Source: an uncultured Spartobacteria bacterium
GTDB taxonomy: Bacteria > Verrucomicrobiota > Verrucomicrobiia > Chthoniobacterales > Chthoniobacteraceae
Reading direction: 5' to 3'
NCBI GenBank assembly: GCA_903882875.1
Contig: CAIRYQ010000013.1
Coordinates: 1-37,569, forward strand
Length of the DNA: 37,569 bases
Shown: positions 444 through 29,791 of the stretch, one piece after another
How the letters are laid out: every line of letters starts with the position of its first letter
How positions within the stretch are numbered: the stretch's first letter is position 1
The notes under the pieces: model-generated
The model's input: the letters and a program-made list of their open reading frames with translations, nothing else
Database searches by the model: none
Told to the model about the DNA's origin: nothing
Program-made: the position numbers and the translations under genes

Positions 444-1877
444 GTGCAACCGACCATCCTCATCGTTGACGACGAAAAGCATACCCGCGAAGGGTTGCGC
501 GCGTCGTTGGAGGATTCGTTCGACGTGTATATCGCGCCGGACACGGCGGGCGCGCTCGCGGTGCTGGAGTCGGAGCATGTGGACCTCATGCTCACCGACC
601 TGCGGCTCGGCGGCGAGGACGGCATGGTGCTCATTGAAAAGGCGCTCGCCCGCTCGCATCCGCCCATCGTGATCATGATGACGGCTTACGGCGGCGTGGA
701 CACGGCGGTCGAGGCGATGAAGCGCGGGGCGTATGATTTTGTGACGAAGCCGCTGAACATTGACCGGCTCGAAATCCTCATCCGCCGCGCGCTGCGCTCG
801 AAGCACGTGGAGAAGGAGGTCATCGAGCTGAAGCAGAAGGTGGAGACGAAATACGGCCTCGAAAAACTGATCGGCCACTCGCCGGTGATGGAGGAGATTT
901 TCGACATGGTGAAGCAGGTCGCGCCGAGCCGCGCGACGGTGCTCATCACGGGCGAGAGCGGCACGGGCAAGGAGCTTGTCGCGCAGGCGATCCACGCGCT
1001 GAGCGGGCGGGCGAAGGAAAAATTTGTCGCCGTCCACATGGCGGCGTTTTCGGCGCAGTTGCTGGAGAGCGAGCTGTTCGGCCACGAGAAGGGCGCGTTC
1101 ACCGGCGCGACGGAGCGGCGTATCGGGCGCTTCGAGCAGGCAAATGGCGGCACGCTGTTCCTCGATGAGATCGGGGAGATTGACAAAAACACGCAGGTGA
1201 AACTGCTGCGCGTGCTCGGCGAGGATCGCAGCTTCGAGCGCGTGGGCGGCAATGCGCCGATCAAGGTGGACGTGCGGCTCGTGGCCGCGACGAACCGCGA
1301 CATCGAGGACATGGTCGGCAAGGGCGAGTTCCGCGACGATCTCTATTTTCGCCTCAGCGTCGTGCGCATCCACATGCCGCCGCTGCGCGGGCGCCCGGAG
1401 GACATCCCGCTCATCGCGCACCATTATCTGCGCGTCGCCGCCGAGGAAAATGGCAAACCGGTGCGCGAGATGACCGCCGACGCGATGGAACTCCTCGAAC
1501 GCTACCCGTGGCCGGGCAATATCCGCGAGCTGCGCGCGGCCATCGAGCGCGCGGTCGTGATGGCGGGCGGCACAAAAATCACGGTGCGCGATCTGCCGCA
1601 CTCGGTGCGCGACGGCGCGTCTGCGATTCCCACAGGCGGCCCGGGCCTGAAGCTGCCCGGACTTTCCAAGCCCGGCCTGCACCTGAACCTCCACGAGACC
1701 GAGCAGCGCATGATCCTCCGCGCGCTCGACGAATGCGGGGGCAACGTCACGAAGGCCGCGCGCGTGCTCGGCCTGAGCCGCCGCACGCTGCACCGGAGGC
1801 TGAAGGAATTCCGCGACGGTGAATCTGCGGAAACCGCGGGCGCGACGCCCGCACAACCCACGTCCCATGGGAGCTGA
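444..1877 (+). CDS. Sigma-54-dependent response regulator (NtrC family)
   Basis: This 477-aa protein has the full three-domain NtrC layout. The N-terminal receiver domain shows the acidic pair D9-D10 and the phospho-acceptor D52 (LMLTDLRLGG). A central AAA+ domain has Walker A GESGTGKE, the GAFTGA loop that contacts sigma-54, and Walker B LFLDEIGEI. The C-terminus is a Fis-type HTH (NVTKAARVLGLSRRTLHRRL). It should activate sigma-54 promoters after phosphorylation by a sensor kinase, but no kinase gene is visible in the window. The reading frame stays open back to 126, but those codons cross the palindromic repeat. The GTG at 444 puts the receiver domain right at the N-terminus and is preferred. 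The stop overlaps the next gene by 11 nt. Confidence 0.93.
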   Translation: MQPTILIVDDEKHTREGLRASLEDSFDVYIAPDTAGALAVLESEHVDLMLTDLRLGGEDGMVLIEKALARSHPPIVIMMTAYGGVDTAVEAMKRGAYDFVTKPLNIDRLEILIRRALRSKHVEKEVIELKQKVETKYGLEKLIGHSPVMEEIFDMVKQVAPSRATVLITGESGTGKELVAQAIHALSGRAKEKFVAVHMAAFSAQLLESELFGHEKGAFTGATERRIGRFEQANGGTLFLDEIGEIDKNTQVKLLRVLGEDRSFERVGGNAPIKVDVRLVAATNRDIEDMVGKGEFRDDLYFRLSVVRIHMPPLRGRPEDIPLIAHHYLRVAAEENGKPVREMTADAMELLERYPWPGNIRELRAAIERAVVMAGGTKITVRDLPHSVRDGASAIPTGGPGLKLPGLSKPGLHLNLHETEQRMILRALDECGGNVTKAARVLGLSRRTLHRRLKEFRDGESAETAGATPAQPTSHGS

Positions 1878-3741
1878 GATCAAGGCGCAGGAAGTCGTCC
1901 ATTCGCTCGAGCACGGCAAGGGGCGGCGCTGGATCGTGATCCTGCTGATCGTCGCCTTTGCGGTGTTCCAGGGCGTCGCGCATGTGCTGATCAACCCGTT
2001 GAACCGCCTCGGCGGGCAGGCCGCGCTGTTCGTCGGCATCACGCACCCGAAGGGCCAGGAGCAGGCTGTGATCGCGCGCGAGATCGCGCGGGGCCACGGC
2101 TTTTCCACAAAGGTGATCAAGCCCGCGGCCATCGCCCTCGTGGAGAAAAGCCGCGGCGCGAACGGCTTCTCCGCATTCCTCGATCCCGAGGGCCCGACCG
2201 GCGGCAACATCCCGGATCTCTACCACGCGCCGCTGAACCCGCTGCTGAATTCCTGCGCGCTCTTCACTGCCGCGCGCATCAGCGACAACCTCGGCCTGCG
2301 CAAGGACGCGAAAGGGCGTGTGGATTTCTGGGGCATGCACAAGGGCGAATACGTCCACCCGGCGGACCGTGTCATCGCCGCAGTCAGCGTGCTGTGTTTC
2401 CTCTTCGCGGTGTGGGTGAGCTTCCTCACCGCGCGCCGGCTTTTCGACGAGCGGCTCGCGGCAATCACCGCGGTGCTCATGCTGCTGTGCAACGAATTCT
2501 GGCGCTACTGCTCCACGGGCCTGCCGCAGATGCTCATGCTCCTGCTCTTCAGCGTGGCGATCTACTTCTCCGTGCGCGCGCACGGCGCGAAGGAAAATGA
2601 GGAGCCCACATGGCCCTGGCACGCCGCCGCAGGGCTCGCCTTCGGCCTGCTCGCGCTCGCCCATCCAATCACGATCTTCCTCTTCGCCGGCGCGCTCATC
2701 CACACGGCCTTCGCATTCTCCCCGCGCGGGCGCGACGCGGCGGTCATGCTCGCCGTCTTCCTCGCCTGCATGAGCCCGTGGCTCATCCGGAATGCGAACC
2801 TCTGCGGCTCGCCCTTCGGCATCGCGGGGCAGACACGGCTGCACGGCCTGCGCGGTTCGGAATCGCAGATCATGCGCACCCTCACCGAGCCGGACAAGAC
2901 GGTTCCGGTGCATTATTTCCGCAGCAAGGTGCAGACCGAACTGCTCGGCCAGCTCGATACGTTCCTTGGCCGGTTCGGGAAGATTTTCCTCGCGCCGATG
3001 TTCTTCCTCACGCTCCTCCACGCGTTCAGGAAAAATGAGACGCGATCGTTCCGCTGGGGATTTCTCATCATGATCCTCTCCGGAATGCTCGGCATGGCCG
3101 TCTTCGGATTCGCGGACGCCGATCTCCAGACCGACATGGAGGCGAACAACCTCTACCCGCTCTTCATCCCGATCGCCACGGCGTACGGCCTCGCCCTCCT
3201 GCTCATCATGTGGAGCCGCGTGCAGGTCGCCGGCCGCGAACTCGCATCCGTCCGGCAGATCAACATCACCTTCCACGTCCTCATCATTTTCCTGAACTCG
3301 CTCGCGCTGCTGAACGTGTACAGCGACCCGCCGAAGCTGCCCTTCGTCTGGCCGCCCTACTTTCCGTCCGCGATCAGCGATGTCGCCGACTGGTATTCCA
3401 ACGACGACATCATCTGCACCGACATGCCCTGGGCCGTAGCGTGGTACGCGGATCGCAAGGCCCTGTGGCTGCCGCTCACCATCGCCGATTTCAACGACCT
3501 GAACGAATTCCGCTTCCACGGAAAAATCACCGGCCTTCTCCTCACGCCCATCACGGGATTCCGCGGCCTGCTCAACGAGGTCGGTGTCGGCGAATTCAAG
3601 GACTGGCGCGCGTTCATCATGCGCGAGCCGCGGGCCGCGCAGAATTTCGTGCTCAAGGTCGCGCACCCGATTTTCCTCATGGGCGCGTCGCACTACCTGC
3701 TCTTCGCGGATCGCGACCGCTGGACGGAGCGGAACAACTGA
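1867..3741 (+). CDS. Polytopic membrane protein, GT-C glycosyltransferase-like
   Basis: A 624-aa protein with a single N-terminal membrane anchor (WIVILLIVAFAVFQGVAHVL), then an extracytoplasmic stretch containing EIARGHGFSTKV and many further hydrophobic segments. This resembles the ArnT/PMT (GT39) superfamily of lipid-linked sugar transferases, in which an acidic residue and a G-x-G-F motif follow the first helix. The family match is my reading of the layout; donor and acceptor cannot be predicted. The ATG at 1867 overlaps the end of the response regulator, suggesting translational coupling; an in-frame ATG at 1819 would lie deeper inside the regulator gene and is less likely. It ends 46 nt before the SAM riboswitch. 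Confidence 0.7.
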   Translation: MGAEIKAQEVVHSLEHGKGRRWIVILLIVAFAVFQGVAHVLINPLNRLGGQAALFVGITHPKGQEQAVIAREIARGHGFSTKVIKPAAIALVEKSRGANGFSAFLDPEGPTGGNIPDLYHAPLNPLLNSCALFTAARISDNLGLRKDAKGRVDFWGMHKGEYVHPADRVIAAVSVLCFLFAVWVSFLTARRLFDERLAAITAVLMLLCNEFWRYCSTGLPQMLMLLLFSVAIYFSVRAHGAKENEEPTWPWHAAAGLAFGLLALAHPITIFLFAGALIHTAFAFSPRGRDAAVMLAVFLACMSPWLIRNANLCGSPFGIAGQTRLHGLRGSESQIMRTLTEPDKTVPVHYFRSKVQTELLGQLDTFLGRFGKIFLAPMFFLTLLHAFRKNETRSFRWGFLIMILSGMLGMAVFGFADADLQTDMEANNLYPLFIPIATAYGLALLLIMWSRVQVAGRELASVRQINITFHVLIIFLNSLALLNVYSDPPKLPFVWPPYFPSAISDVADWYSNDDIICTDMPWAVAWYADRKALWLPLTIADFNDLNEFRFHGKITGLLLTPITGFRGLLNEVGVGEFKDWRAFIMREPRAAQNFVLKVAHPIFLMGASHYLLFADRDRWTERNN

Positions 3742-3787
3742 GCGGGAAAAATTCCGTTGACGGATCGGACGAGGCCCGTATCGTGCG

Positions 3788-3916
3788 CGCCTCTCTTATC
3801 CAGAGTGGCTGAGGGTTCTGGCCCCGCGACGCCACGGCAACCGCTCCGATTCAACCCGGAGGACCAGGTGCCAAATCCAGCCTCGCGCCGCAATGGTTCG
3901 GGGGTAGATGAGAGCG
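3788..3916 (+). promoter_or_regulatory. SAM-I (S-box) riboswitch
   Basis: The stretch carries the S-box landmarks in order: P1 5' strand ctctc (3791-3795), ttatccagagtggctgaggg, the ggccc block, the gcaacc motif near 3837, the aggtgccaaatcc motif near 3867, and the agatgagag block closing P1 (gagag, 3910-3914). It begins 47 nt after the membrane-protein gene and ends 58 nt before the threonine synthase-like ATG, so it should repress that gene and probably the two behind it when S-adenosylmethionine is abundant. A hairpin with ggtga/tcacc near 3921-3938 could be part of the expression platform. No strong U-run terminator is evident, so control of translation is possible. Confidence 0.93.
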
Positions 3917-3974
3917 AAGCGGTGATACGTCGTCACCCCTCGCCACTCCGGGAAGAGTTCAGTGCTGTATTGCC

Positions 3975-5249
3975 ATGCAAAAAAATACTCCTTCCTACTT
4001 CTCGAACCTCAAGTGCCGCGAGTGCGGACGACTTTACCCGAAGCAGGCCATCCACGTCTGCGACTTCGACTTTGGCCCGCTCGAGGCGGCCTACGATTAC
4101 GATGCGATCAAGGCGGCTCTTTCGCGTGAAGTAATCGAGTCGCGCCCGAAGAGCATGTGGCGCTACCGCGAGCTGCTGCCGATTGACGGCGAACCCACCG
4201 TCGGCACGCAGGTCGGCTTCACGCCGCTCGTGAAGGCGGACCGCCTCGCGGCGAAGCTCGGCATCAAGGCGCTCTACATCAAAAACGACACCGTCAATTA
4301 CCCCACGCTCTCGTTCAAGGATCGCGTCGTGAGCGTTGCACTCAGCCGCGCGAAGGAGCTTGGTTTCAAGACCGTCGCGTGCGCTTCGACTGGAAACCTC
4401 GCGAACTCCGTCGCTGCAAATGCCGCGAGCGCCGGGCTGAAAAGCTACGTCCTAATCCCCGCCGACCTCGAACAGGGCAAGGTGCTCGGCTCGCTCGTGT
4501 ACGGCACAAACGTCATCGGCATCCACGGCGCATACGATCAGGTGAACCGCCTCTGCTCCGAGATCGCCGGCAAATACGGCTGGGGCTTCGTGAACGTGAA
4601 CCTGCGCCCGTATTACGCCGAAGGCAGCAAGAGCATGGGCTTTGAAATCATGGAGCAACTCGGCTGGCGCATTCCGCGGCACACCGTCGCGCCGATGGCG
4701 TCCGGCTCGCTGCTCACAAAAATCCACAAGGCCTACGGCGAGTTCACAAAGATCGGCCTCGTCGAGGATGCGAAGTTTTCCATCTACGGGGCGCAGGCCA
4801 CCGGCTGCGCACCGATTTCCCACGCGATGAAAAAGGGCACCGACATCGTGAAGCCCGTGCCGAAGCCCGACACGATCGCAAAGTCCCTCGCCATCGGCAC
4901 GCCCGCCGACGGCTACTACGCCATCCACGTCATGCGCCAGACCGGCGGAACCGCCGAGGATGTGAGCGACGATGAAGTCATCGAAGGCATCAAGCTCCTC
5001 GCCGAATACGCGGGCATCTTCGCCGAGACCGCCGGCGGAGTCACCGTCGCCTGCGCGAAAAAGCTCATTGAGGCCGGCAAAATCCCGCGTGACGAGGAAG
5101 CCGTCCTCTGCATCACCGGCCACGGCCTCAAGACGCAGGAAGCCATCCAAGGCAAATGCGGCACGCCCCGCCTCATCAAGCCGAGCCTCCGCGAATTCGA
5201 GGAGCAAATCTATCTCCCCGACCAGGCTGCAACCGCAGCCAAATCCTAA
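3975..5249 (+). CDS. Threonine synthase-like PLP enzyme, probable homocysteine synthase
   Basis: A 424-aa fold-type II PLP enzyme of the threonine synthase family. The N-terminus has a Cys pair (C14, C17) and C29 like the zinc-ribbon start of some threonine synthases. The PLP lysine is K115 in TLSFKDRVVSVAL, and ASTGNLANSVA is the phosphate-binding segment. Classical ThrC converts O-phosphohomoserine to threonine. Here the gene sits under a SAM-I riboswitch and is followed by a MoaD/ThiS-like sulfur carrier and a NIL-domain protein, so I infer that it uses O-phosphohomoserine (or a related homoserine ester) plus carrier-bound sulfide to make homocysteine. The alternative is an ordinary threonine synthase placed under methionine control. 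The family is certain; the reaction is inferred. Confidence 0.88.
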   Translation: MQKNTPSYFSNLKCRECGRLYPKQAIHVCDFDFGPLEAAYDYDAIKAALSREVIESRPKSMWRYRELLPIDGEPTVGTQVGFTPLVKADRLAAKLGIKALYIKNDTVNYPTLSFKDRVVSVALSRAKELGFKTVACASTGNLANSVAANAASAGLKSYVLIPADLEQGKVLGSLVYGTNVIGIHGAYDQVNRLCSEIAGKYGWGFVNVNLRPYYAEGSKSMGFEIMEQLGWRIPRHTVAPMASGSLLTKIHKAYGEFTKIGLVEDAKFSIYGAQATGCAPISHAMKKGTDIVKPVPKPDTIAKSLAIGTPADGYYAIHVMRQTGGTAEDVSDDEVIEGIKLLAEYAGIFAETAGGVTVACAKKLIEAGKIPRDEEAVLCITGHGLKTQEAIQGKCGTPRLIKPSLREFEEQIYLPDQAATAAKS

Positions 5250-5268
5250 ATCCCAAATCTTAAACAGA

Positions 5269-5541
5269 ATGGCCAACGTCCGAATCCCCACCCCGCTCCG
5301 CAAACTCACCAACGATCTCGAAGTCGTCTCCGCCGCCGGAGCAAACGTCGGCGAACTCATCACGAATCTCGACAAGGCATTTCCCGGATTGCGCGAGCGC
5401 ATCTGTGACGAGCAAGGCAACGTCCGCCGCTTCGTGAACATCTTTGTCAGCGACGAGGACATCCGCTTTTTGCAGGAACTCGCCACTCCGGTGAAGGACG
5501 GCGACGAAGTGAGCATCGTCCCCGCGATCGCAGGCGGCTAG
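5269..5541 (+). CDS. MoaD/ThiS-family sulfur-carrier protein
   Basis: A 90-aa ubiquitin-fold protein (MANVRIPTPLRKLTN start) ending in VSIVPAIAGG. The exposed C-terminal Gly-Gly is the site that E1-like enzymes adenylate and convert to a thiocarboxylate in ThiS and MoaD. The ATG at 5269 is 19 nt after the threonine synthase-like gene; longer in-frame starts lie inside that gene. Position between a SAM-controlled PLP enzyme and a NIL protein argues for a role as sulfide donor in homocysteine formation instead of molybdopterin or thiamine synthesis. No E1-like or desulfurase gene lies nearby, so activation must come from elsewhere. Confidence 0.9.
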   Translation: MANVRIPTPLRKLTNDLEVVSAAGANVGELITNLDKAFPGLRERICDEQGNVRRFVNIFVSDEDIRFLQELATPVKDGDEVSIVPAIAGG

Positions 5542-5580
5542 ACGCTCGTTCGTTCATCGCGCTTTACGCATTCCGAGAAA

Positions 5581-5634
5581 GTGACTGGTGACTTGTGATT
5601 GGTGACTAGTCACTCTTCACCAATCACCAGTCAC
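5581..5634. repeat. Imperfect palindrome built of ggtgact-type units
   Basis: The 54 bp consist of repeated gtgactggtga-like units, first direct and then inverted, so that gtgactggtga (5581-5591) pairs with tcaccagtcac (5624-5634) and an inner ttggtga pairs with tcaccaa. It sits in the 150-nt gap between the sulfur-carrier and NIL genes and could fold in mRNA. It may attenuate transcription into the NIL gene or simply be a dispersed repeat. Confidence 0.6.
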
Positions 5635-5691
5635 AGCTTCGGTTTTCAAAAAAATATCCCTGACAACCCGCACCTCACGCACCCGCACCCA

Positions 5692-5940
5692 ATGGCAAAC
5701 GACACATCCCGCCTCTGGCTCATGTATCCCACCCGGCTCGTCACGCGGCCGATCATCTGGGAGCTGTGCAAGAAATTTGAAGTGACCACCAACCTGCGTC
5801 AGGCCAGCGTGAATGAAGAGGTCGGCCTCGTCTGCCTCGAACTGGACGGCGAGCGCACGGAAATCAAGCGCGCCATCGCATGGCTCGAGGAGATCGGCGT
5901 GAAGGTCGAGCCCGTCGAGATCAACACCATCGAGGGCTGA
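5692..5940 (+). CDS. NIL domain-containing protein
   Basis: An 82-aa protein that is essentially a single NIL domain: RLWLMYPTRLVTRPIIWELC at the start, a central beta stretch GLVCLELDGE and the C-terminal helix IKRAIAWLEEIGVKVEPVE. NIL domains occur at the end of methionine importer ATPases (MetN), where they bind methionine, and fused to ferredoxin domains in archaeal homocysteine synthesis. This copy has no ferredoxin part. As the third member of the riboswitch cluster it may sense methionine or assist sulfur transfer. The ATG at 5692 starts directly at the domain; an upstream in-frame start would run through the repeat. Confidence 0.88.
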   Translation: MANDTSRLWLMYPTRLVTRPIIWELCKKFEVTTNLRQASVNEEVGLVCLELDGERTEIKRAIAWLEEIGVKVEPVEINTIEG

Positions 5941-6049
5941 GCTTTGCGGATGGGCTTTTGCCGCAGGGAGCGATAGCGCGGACGAGGAAACGCGGCTGCG
6001 ACTGTGCCGAAAGTTTGCGGGGGAAGGATGCGCGCGCCGTCGGAAAAAC

Positions 6050-7504
6050 TCACGCAAGCAGCTTCGCGAGCAGATCGTTCACGACCTGTGGGTTCGCCCT
6101 GCCCTGCGAATTTTTTAGCACCTGGCCCTTGAGAAAATTGATGCTGCCGAGCTTGCCCGCCTTGTATTCGGCGACGGCCTTCGGATTCGCATCCATCACC
6201 TGTTTGCACAGCGCCTCGATCGCGCCCGTGTCGCTCACCTGCTCGAGCCCGCGCTCCTTCACGATCTGTGCTGCGGATTTTCCGGTGCCGAACATCTCGG
6301 CGAAAACTTCCTTGCCCTGCTTCGAGCTGATCTTCCCGTCGTCAATGAGGCTCACCAGTTCGTCGAGCGAGTGCGCGCTGATCGGGCAGTCGCTGATCGT
6401 CTTCTCCGCCGCAGTGAGCGCGCTAAGGAGATCGTTGATGATCCAGTTCGCGACGCTCTTCGGCTTCCTCGCGCCCTTCGCCGCGGTGTCGAAAAACTCC
6501 GCAAGCGCGCGTTCGCTCGCGAGCACGCTGGCGTCGTAATTCGTCACGCCGAATTCGGCCACGAAGCGGTCGCGCTTTTCGCCGGGCAGTTCGGGGCGCT
6601 TCGCGCGCACCTCGGGCATGAAGACCGTCGTGTCCACCGGAAGCAGATCGGGATCGGGAAAATAGCGGTAGTCGTGCGTGCTTTCCTTTGTGCGCTGGTG
6701 GCGCGTCTGCCCGATCGCGTCGTCCCAGCCGCGCGTGCTCTGCACGAGAGTCTCACCCCGTTCGCACGCGACGATCTGGCGCTTGATCTCGTAGGCCACC
6801 GCACGGCGCACGGCGGAGATCGAGTTCATGTTCTTAATTTCGATCTTCACGCCGAGTTCCTTCTGTCCCTCGGGCCGCACGGAGACGTTGCAGTCGCAGC
6901 GGAGCTGGCCCTTTTCCATATCCGCGTCGCTCACGCCGCCGTAGATGAGGATTTGCTGCAAGCTCGTGAGATACGCGAACGCCTCCTCGGGCGACTCGAT
7001 GTCCGGCTCGCTCACAATCTCCATCAGCGGCGTGCCTGCGCGATTGAAATCAATGCCGCTGTTCGTGTCGAAGTGCGTGGACTTCGCCACGTCCTCCTCA
7101 AGATGAATGCGCGTGAGCTTCACGACCTTGCCGGGATGCGCGATGCCCTTCTGCGCGTCCTTCGGATACGCAAACTCGTGCAGCGGCACGCCGCCGCCGA
7201 TGCAGATGGGCAGATCGAACTGCGTGATCTGGTAGTTCTTCGGCATGTCGGGATAGAAGTAATTCTTCCGATCAAATTTGCACTTCGGCGCGATGTCGCA
7301 GCCGAGCATGAGTCCCGCGAGCGCGGTCATTTTGAGCGCCTCGCCATTCATCACCGGCAGCGCGCCGGGGTAGCCGAGGCACACGGGGCAGGTGTGTGTG
7401 TTCGGCGCGGCGCCGTATTCGGCGGGGCAGCCGCAGAACATCTTGCTGCGCGTCTTGAGCTGGACGTGGACCTCAAGTCCGATCGTGGGAATGTAGCGGG
7501 GCAT
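6050..7504 (-). CDS. gatB: Asp-tRNA(Asn)/Glu-tRNA(Gln) amidotransferase subunit B
   Basis: A 484-aa protein, normal GatB length, starting MPRYIPTIGLEVHVQLKT. It has the conserved MFCGCPAEYG and NTHTCPVCLGYPGALPVMN region with zinc-binding cysteines, the FDRKNYFYPDMPKNYQI block, and a C-terminal GatB/YqeY helical domain that contacts tRNA. In the GatCAB complex it activates the misacylated tRNA carboxylate for amidation. It is the last gene of the minus-strand run phoH-aroC-cvpA-gatB, 12 nt after the CvpA-like gene, and converges with the NIL gene. gatA and gatC are not in the window. Confidence 0.97.
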   Translation of the reverse strand: MPRYIPTIGLEVHVQLKTRSKMFCGCPAEYGAAPNTHTCPVCLGYPGALPVMNGEALKMTALAGLMLGCDIAPKCKFDRKNYFYPDMPKNYQITQFDLPICIGGGVPLHEFAYPKDAQKGIAHPGKVVKLTRIHLEEDVAKSTHFDTNSGIDFNRAGTPLMEIVSEPDIESPEEAFAYLTSLQQILIYGGVSDADMEKGQLRCDCNVSVRPEGQKELGVKIEIKNMNSISAVRRAVAYEIKRQIVACERGETLVQSTRGWDDAIGQTRHQRTKESTHDYRYFPDPDLLPVDTTVFMPEVRAKRPELPGEKRDRFVAEFGVTNYDASVLASERALAEFFDTAAKGARKPKSVANWIINDLLSALTAAEKTISDCPISAHSLDELVSLIDDGKISSKQGKEVFAEMFGTGKSAAQIVKERGLEQVSDTGAIEALCKQVMDANPKAVAEYKAGKLGSINFLKGQVLKNSQGRANPQVVNDLLAKLLA

Positions 7505-12113: not shown

Positions 12114-12186
12114 GCGGGCGTAGCTCAGTTGGTAGAGCATCTCGTTGCCAACGAGAATGTCGAGAGTTCGAATCTCTTCGCCCGCT
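12114..12186 (+). tRNA. tRNA-Gly (anticodon GCC)
   Basis: A full cloverleaf is visible. The acceptor stem is gcgggcg paired with cgcccgc, the D arm gctc-agttggta-gagc, and the anticodon stem tctcg/cgaga around loop ttGCCaa. The variable loop is atgtc, followed by the T arm gagag-ttcgaat-ctctt. The discriminator is T at 12186, and CCA is not encoded. Its 3' half is the attachment site of the integrative element to the right, whose integrase reads into it from the other strand. Confidence 0.97.
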
Positions 12187-29716: not shown

Positions 29717-29791
29717 TCCGAGATAGCTCAATGGTAGAGCAATCGGCTGTTAACCGATCGGTTGTAGGTTCGAGTCCTACTCTCGGAGCCA
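29717..29791 (+). tRNA. tRNA-Asn (anticodon GTT)
   Basis: Acceptor stem tccgaga/tctcgga, D arm gctc-aatggta-gagc, anticodon stem atcgg/ccgat around loop ctGTTaa, variable loop cggtt, T arm gtagg-ttcgagt-cctac. Discriminator G at 29788, with CCA encoded at 29789-29791. An integrase begins 176 nt downstream, so this tRNA is probably a second integration target; 29792-29967 holds only a gtgtgcag direct repeat and the integrase leader. Confidence 0.97.

Follow-up and report, generated by a model that had tools for sequence, protein, structure and literature searches.

A predicted MetM/MetO-type homocysteine synthase cassette with a SAM-I riboswitch and a stand-alone NIL-domain protein in a Spartobacteria genome

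Pairs of a pyridoxal 5'-phosphate (PLP) enzyme and a sulfur carrier are known from mycobacteria, in which CysM and CysO make cysteine from O-phosphoserine, and from Streptomyces albulus, in which metO reportedly lies directly downstream of metM. MetM of S. albulus is described as a homocysteine synthase, with metO encoding the carrier and an S-adenosylmethionine (SAM) riboswitch located upstream (Hasebe et al. 2024, Appl Environ Microbiol 90:e01247-24, as cited in excerpts of PMC12172450). Homocysteine is also formed in methanogens and Desulfovibrio by a route of DUF39 and a NIL-ferredoxin protein, which according to part of PMC5764234 does not use homoserine. The C2/NIL domain of MetN is acted on by methionine, which inhibits transport (PMC10710835, in excerpt). 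The stretch of DNA analysed here (the window) has 37,569 nucleotides (nt) and is the entire contig C13 of the 5.78-Mb genome of an uncultured Spartobacteria bacterium, which is rated as 96% complete. It carries on its plus strand a cassette made up of a SAM-I riboswitch and the genes of a threonine-synthase-like enzyme, a sulfur carrier and a stand-alone NIL-domain protein. The cassette is read as a MetM/MetO-type homocysteine synthase, with enzyme and carrier as its core, at a probability of about 0.85; we infer the substrate, the sulfur transfer, the partnership with an E1 protein and the direction of control.

The riboswitch aptamer (3793-3914) was found with RF00162 at 74.4 bits, above the gathering score of 44.4 (E 8.2e-16), and is followed after a gap of 60 nt by the metM-like gene (3975-5249, 424 aa). 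The product, a fold-type II PLP enzyme predicted to be an O-phosphohomoserine-dependent homocysteine synthase, matched PF00291 at 2.5e-66 and the thrC profile TIGR00260 at 282.9-284 bits against a cut-off of 167.1, a profile that does not separate MetM from ThrC. The metO-like gene (5269-5541, 90 aa) encodes a sulfur carrier of the ThiS/MoaD family, which matched PF02597 at 4.8e-16 and ends in AIAGG. The third gene (5692-5940, 82 aa), a predicted methionine-sensing regulatory partner, matched PF09383 at 8.2e-13, and the Pfam search revealed no other domain in its product, a ferredoxin domain included. The preliminary description of this DNA had named a SAM-I riboswitch ahead of the cassette, a threonine synthase homologue, an adjoining Gly-Gly sulfur carrier and a NIL protein lacking ferredoxin, and the profile matches bear out all of these. 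It had also mentioned an O-phosphohomoserine-dependent homocysteine synthase from Streptomyces, which exists as MetM/MetO according to the excerpts of PMC12172450.

The arrangement was compared over 89 loci, of which eight came from an evenly drawn phylum sample of 115 genomes (120 requested), 80 from named genomes and one from Nonomuraea gerenzanensis. The named loci are the best 80 of 429, and more distant phyla fall outside these 80. Their enzymes showed 75-95% identity; the closest, at 94-95%, are labelled Spartobacteria or Verrucomicrobiota, two (L087 and L116) carry labels of other phyla, and the remaining ones read as Verrucomicrobiota. Using a search model built from six riboswitches, none of them among the 80, a riboswitch was found 5' of the enzyme in 76 of the 80 named loci, and the four misses have at most 156 nt before the enzyme match. 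Such recurrence across other genomes shows that the arrangement is more than accidental. For 80 distinct riboswitch sequences, 18 of the 34 model pairs were changed on both sides and 94.4% of the cells were paired, compared with 42-45% when the partners were slid, in an alignment that was fitted to the model.

We found the carrier in 83 of the 89 loci, and all 83 carriers, that of the window included, have a Gly-Gly C-terminus; of the six misses, two are without downstream room and four have it. These four (L053, L054, L055 and L072) hold riboswitch and enzyme with no carrier found in the locus, and their carrier may be elsewhere in the genome. Besides enzyme, carrier, NIL and overlapping frames, the neighbour comparison revealed no gene family shared by over 11 of the 81 loci. 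In N. gerenzanensis a SAM-I riboswitch, the enzyme (53.5% identity) and a Gly-Gly carrier (48%) stand in the same order as in the window. One scan of viral contigs gave 64 pattern matches and no relative.

The alternative routes to homocysteine were searched for in the genome of the window. The preliminary description had pointed to a second thrC and to metB, metY or metZ as the genes to look for. A second, canonical threonine synthase was found on contig C108, scoring 330 bits with the thrC profile, above the window enzyme, and being without the MetM-type residues; a full-length PF01053 enzyme (the family of metB, metC, metY and metZ) was not found in this genome, partial matches reaching at most 31.4 bits, and neither was MetX at E<=1e-20. 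The genome also encodes a MoeZ-type E1 (ThiF plus rhodanese), ThrB and MetH. No further SAM-I element was found in it, 150 of 352 first-look candidates having been scored. As this genome may be incomplete, single absences in it are weak and the comparison across the phylum is the stronger test.

An orthologue of the enzyme was present in eight of the 115 genomes at 67-100% identity, any match in the other 107 genomes being at 37% or less. PF01053 at E<=1e-20 was found in 0/8 enzyme-bearing genomes versus 104/107 others. For MetX the corresponding counts were 0/8 and 99/107, resting on E<=1e-20 since every genome stayed below the curated cut-off for MetX, and the three other genomes lacking PF01053 (G077, G106 and G110) all have MetX. 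The Fisher p values were 3e-10 for PF01053 and 2e-8 for MetX, ignoring kinship, and a hand count of PF01053 by family gave 0/4 versus 28/29 (p 1e-4). All eight enzyme-bearing genomes have the carrier, ThrB, a ThiF E1 and a second threonine-synthase-like gene, and the E1 carried a rhodanese in the three checked. The riboswitch was found at the enzyme in five of the eight, the genomes in which it was not found being G036, G057 and G008. Because PF01053 and MetX are missing in all eight, no source of homocysteine was found for them other than the enzyme. The genomic comparison supports the view that the enzyme stands in for conventional homocysteine synthesis. The claim of the preliminary description, that O-phosphohomoserine and a protein thiocarboxylate are the substrates of a homocysteine synthase here, likewise finds support in the genome of the window, in which a second thrC was found but no full-length PF01053, MetX or DUF39.

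The enzyme could instead be an ordinary threonine synthase or a bifunctional threonine synthase/deaminase, with the carrier serving another pathway. The TIGR00260 score above cut-off agrees with such a function, and so does the AlphaFold2 model of the enzyme (predicted local distance difference test score, pLDDT, 81.9, and below 50 at 206-208), whose best structural matches and closest solved structures are threonine synthases. A cyanobacterial relative is also reported in the excerpts of PMC12172450 to act as threonine synthase/deaminase, not fully as MetM; its gene is without a SAM riboswitch, and the same genome carries a further gene annotated as threonine synthase (ThrC2). Phylogeny speaks for a different assignment. 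A 57-protein tree split 24 MetM-type rows, including that of Nonomuraea, from 33 others with a branch support of 100/100; the 33 rows are labelled ThrC by similarity and three of them are annotated as threonine synthase in their own records. The second threonine-synthase-like genes of seven of the eight genomes were placed in this tree, all of them among the ThrC-type rows and apart from the MetM-type ones.

The same division was seen residue by residue. At 21 positions the 24 MetM-type rows, the actinobacterial protein included, are invariant for a residue that is present in at most two of the 33 other rows, and the window enzyme does not carry the canonical ThrC residues there. Among these positions are V118, V119, L142 (beside the ASTGN motif), N209, R211, Y214, S218, A242, S243 and S245. 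V118 and V119 come shortly after K115, which we take to be the PLP lysine; the stretch of N209, R211, Y214 and S218 presumably corresponds to the substrate-phosphate site of ThrC, and the loop with A242, S243 and S245 presumably holds the PLP phosphate. The SAM-I riboswitch moreover points to methionine, and homocysteine would otherwise be left with no source found. A threonine synthase with an unrelated carrier is thus considered improbable.

The carrier brings in another explanation, namely that the pair makes cysteine as CysM and CysO do. Among solved structures the closest to it is 3dwg chain C, which we take to be CysO bound to CysM. The enzyme, however, most resembles threonine synthases, with far lower scores for CysM-type chains; a SAM-I riboswitch lies ahead of it, and a CysK-like gene (L005; named by eye) is located elsewhere in the genome. 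Cysteine as the product is therefore highly improbable, and a MetM-type homocysteine synthase is preferred to both alternatives.

In the MetM-type route, homoserine kinase (ThrB) would make O-phosphohomoserine, and the MoeZ-type E1 with its rhodanese, encoded elsewhere, would adenylate the Gly-Gly end of the carrier and turn it into a thiocarboxylate. The enzyme would then use PLP to remove the phosphate from O-phosphohomoserine and to add the carrier sulfur at the gamma carbon, yielding homocysteine, which MetH could methylate in the genome of the window. At high SAM the riboswitch would presumably lower expression, and the NIL protein would probably bind methionine or a related product and adjust the enzyme allosterically.

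The AlphaFold2 model of the NIL protein, having a pLDDT of 90.8, matched MetN C2 domains, with a Foldseek E of 7.7e-6 to MetNI. PF09383 occurs once in six of the eight enzyme-bearing genomes, always in the cassette, and was not found in G036 and G057; in none of the eight did the search reveal a MetN with this domain. Among the 89 loci, NIL was present in 56, and it lies upstream on the opposite strand in L090, L094, L096 and L097. As NIL belongs to the DUF39 homocysteine route (PMC5764234, in part) and here adjoins a candidate homocysteine synthase, the protein might be a catalytic or sulfur-relay subunit, a proposal that rivals the NIL part of the reading only. The lack of a ferredoxin domain, of DUF39 in the genome of the window and of any conserved cysteine argues against it; 32 of the 56 NIL proteins contain no cysteine at all, making a redox or persulfide role unlikely. 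Furthermore, NIL was not found in the two reduced genomes G036 and G057, which keep enzyme, carrier, E1 and ThrB, and the sequence up to 5 kb from the enzyme gene of Nonomuraea yielded none either. A relay function is accordingly held to be unlikely. In G036 and G057 the riboswitch was not found either, and the loss of both while the catalytic parts stay fits a regulatory NIL. The role of an allosteric methionine sensor is given roughly even odds, as the least certain part of the reading, and sulfur transfer, as ferredoxin-fused relatives may perform it, seems less likely than this regulatory role.

G036 and G057 (loci L016 and L017) are of ~0.916 Mb each; G036 is taken as Xiphinematobacter americani, and G057, bearing the same genus label, is probably its sister. 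For X. americani (CP012665, 915,884 bases), part of PMC4607532 states that the pathways to the essential amino acids are retained in most of their steps, methionine excepted, and part of PMC7857533 that symbiont methionine synthesis appears to miss several genes. In G036 the search for ThiS-family proteins yielded the carrier alone, and that for E1 a single protein. For the methylation step the search in the symbionts covered PF02965 (MetH), which was not found. The cassette would fill the homocysteine step in X. americani. A tentative extension, itself rather doubtful, is that NIL serves as a detachable methionine sensor which feedback-inhibits MetM as a second layer of control besides the riboswitch, and that Xiphinematobacter dropped both controls and so supplies its nematode host with homocysteine or methionine without feedback. 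Such a supply, if true, would contradict the published view of methionine as the exception among the essential amino acids.

Several observations weigh against a MetM/MetO-type homocysteine synthase with a regulatory NIL, in addition to the activity of the cyanobacterial relative. MetH (PF02965) was found in only two of the eight enzyme-bearing genomes, MetE not having been searched for. A partial PF01053 match in the genome of the window reached 31.4 bits against a cut-off of 27, covering positions 71-181 of 381, and the search in which HcyBio/DUF39 was not found, with 3/14 controls giving matches, was confined to this genome. The tree program warned of long branches, that of Nonomuraea among them, and the untested Nonomuraea protein stands in for S. 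albulus MetM in the comparisons. No carrier was found in place in 4/78 named loci with downstream room, and NIL was not found in 33/89 loci, some with little downstream sequence. The cassette of G008 (L018) has NIL, and the riboswitch was not found there, so that one regulator can be lost without the other. Finally, an expression platform was not established by the terminator scan, or by alternative pairing, which was weakly above shuffles.

A consensus scan for promoter-like hexamers found one sigma-70-like promoter, TTGACG-16-TATCGT (3757-3784, plus strand), directly 5' of the riboswitch, compared with a shuffle mean of 0.5; it is weak taken alone. The terminator scan found no intrinsic terminators in 3600-6060. 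Ahead of the start codon, complements to the 3' strand of P1 were counted in 77 loci and compared with shuffles that preserved base composition only: 6 nt in ten loci (3.7 expected), 7 nt in six (0.6) and 8 nt in one (0.1). The complements exceed the shuffles, but in too few loci, and the alternative-pairing switch model was dropped. The fold of 3793-3998 alone has an optimum without the aptamer P1 helix (z -2.15) and was not used as evidence. The gap between carrier and NIL genes is 150 nt in the window, versus a median of 45 nt over 51 loci with both genes on the same strand, own included. This gap holds an inverted repeat (5581-5634) with 27-nt arms that are 81% complementary, a possible terminator or mobile repeat. 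Upstream of the cassette are a sigma-54-dependent response regulator (126-1877) and then a PMT_2-family membrane protein (1819-3741), and two tRNA genes were located in the window with Rfam (12114-12186 and 29717-29788).

Profile-based annotation would name the enzyme a threonine synthase, and enzyme-bearing Verrucomicrobia (Spartobacteria, Methylacidiphilales) can as a result seem to be methionine auxotrophs, probably wrongly. The NIL partner also offers a testable idea for the function of stand-alone NIL domains. Among the open-licence papers listed in the literature searches, none was recognised as an account of the cassette in Verrucomicrobia or of a MetM-NIL pair.

Compared with known systems, the window enzyme shares with canonical ThrC the fold type II of PLP enzymes, the motifs SFKDR and ASTGN, and O-phosphohomoserine as predicted substrate. 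It differs from ThrC in its separate tree branch, in having VV instead of GM after SFKDR and an ASGS instead of a GNAGN-type loop, and in R211 and Y214 of the NLRPYY stretch. As in CysM/CysO, a PLP enzyme would act on an O-phospho amino acid with a Gly-Gly carrier in its thiocarboxylate form, whereas the predicted product is another one and the enzyme most resembles threonine synthase. The DUF39 and NIL-ferredoxin route (PMC5764234, in part) resembles it in the NIL-domain protein and in the predicted product, homocysteine, and differs by the DUF39 and ferredoxin domain which are absent from the genome and the protein, respectively. In fold and sequence family the NIL protein agrees with the C2/NIL domain that MetN carries in the methionine importer, but it stands alone and beside a biosynthetic enzyme. 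The closest likeness is to MetM/MetO of S. albulus, which, as far as the excerpts of PMC12172450 go, also combines a threonine-synthase-like enzyme, a sulfur-carrier gene and an upstream SAM riboswitch. These matching features suggest that the enzyme-carrier core is of an already known kind. The window cassette comes from another phylum, and its conserved NIL gene, present in 55/88 Verrucomicrobia-type loci, own included, is an apparent addition that would make the cassette a variant of the MetM/MetO kind.

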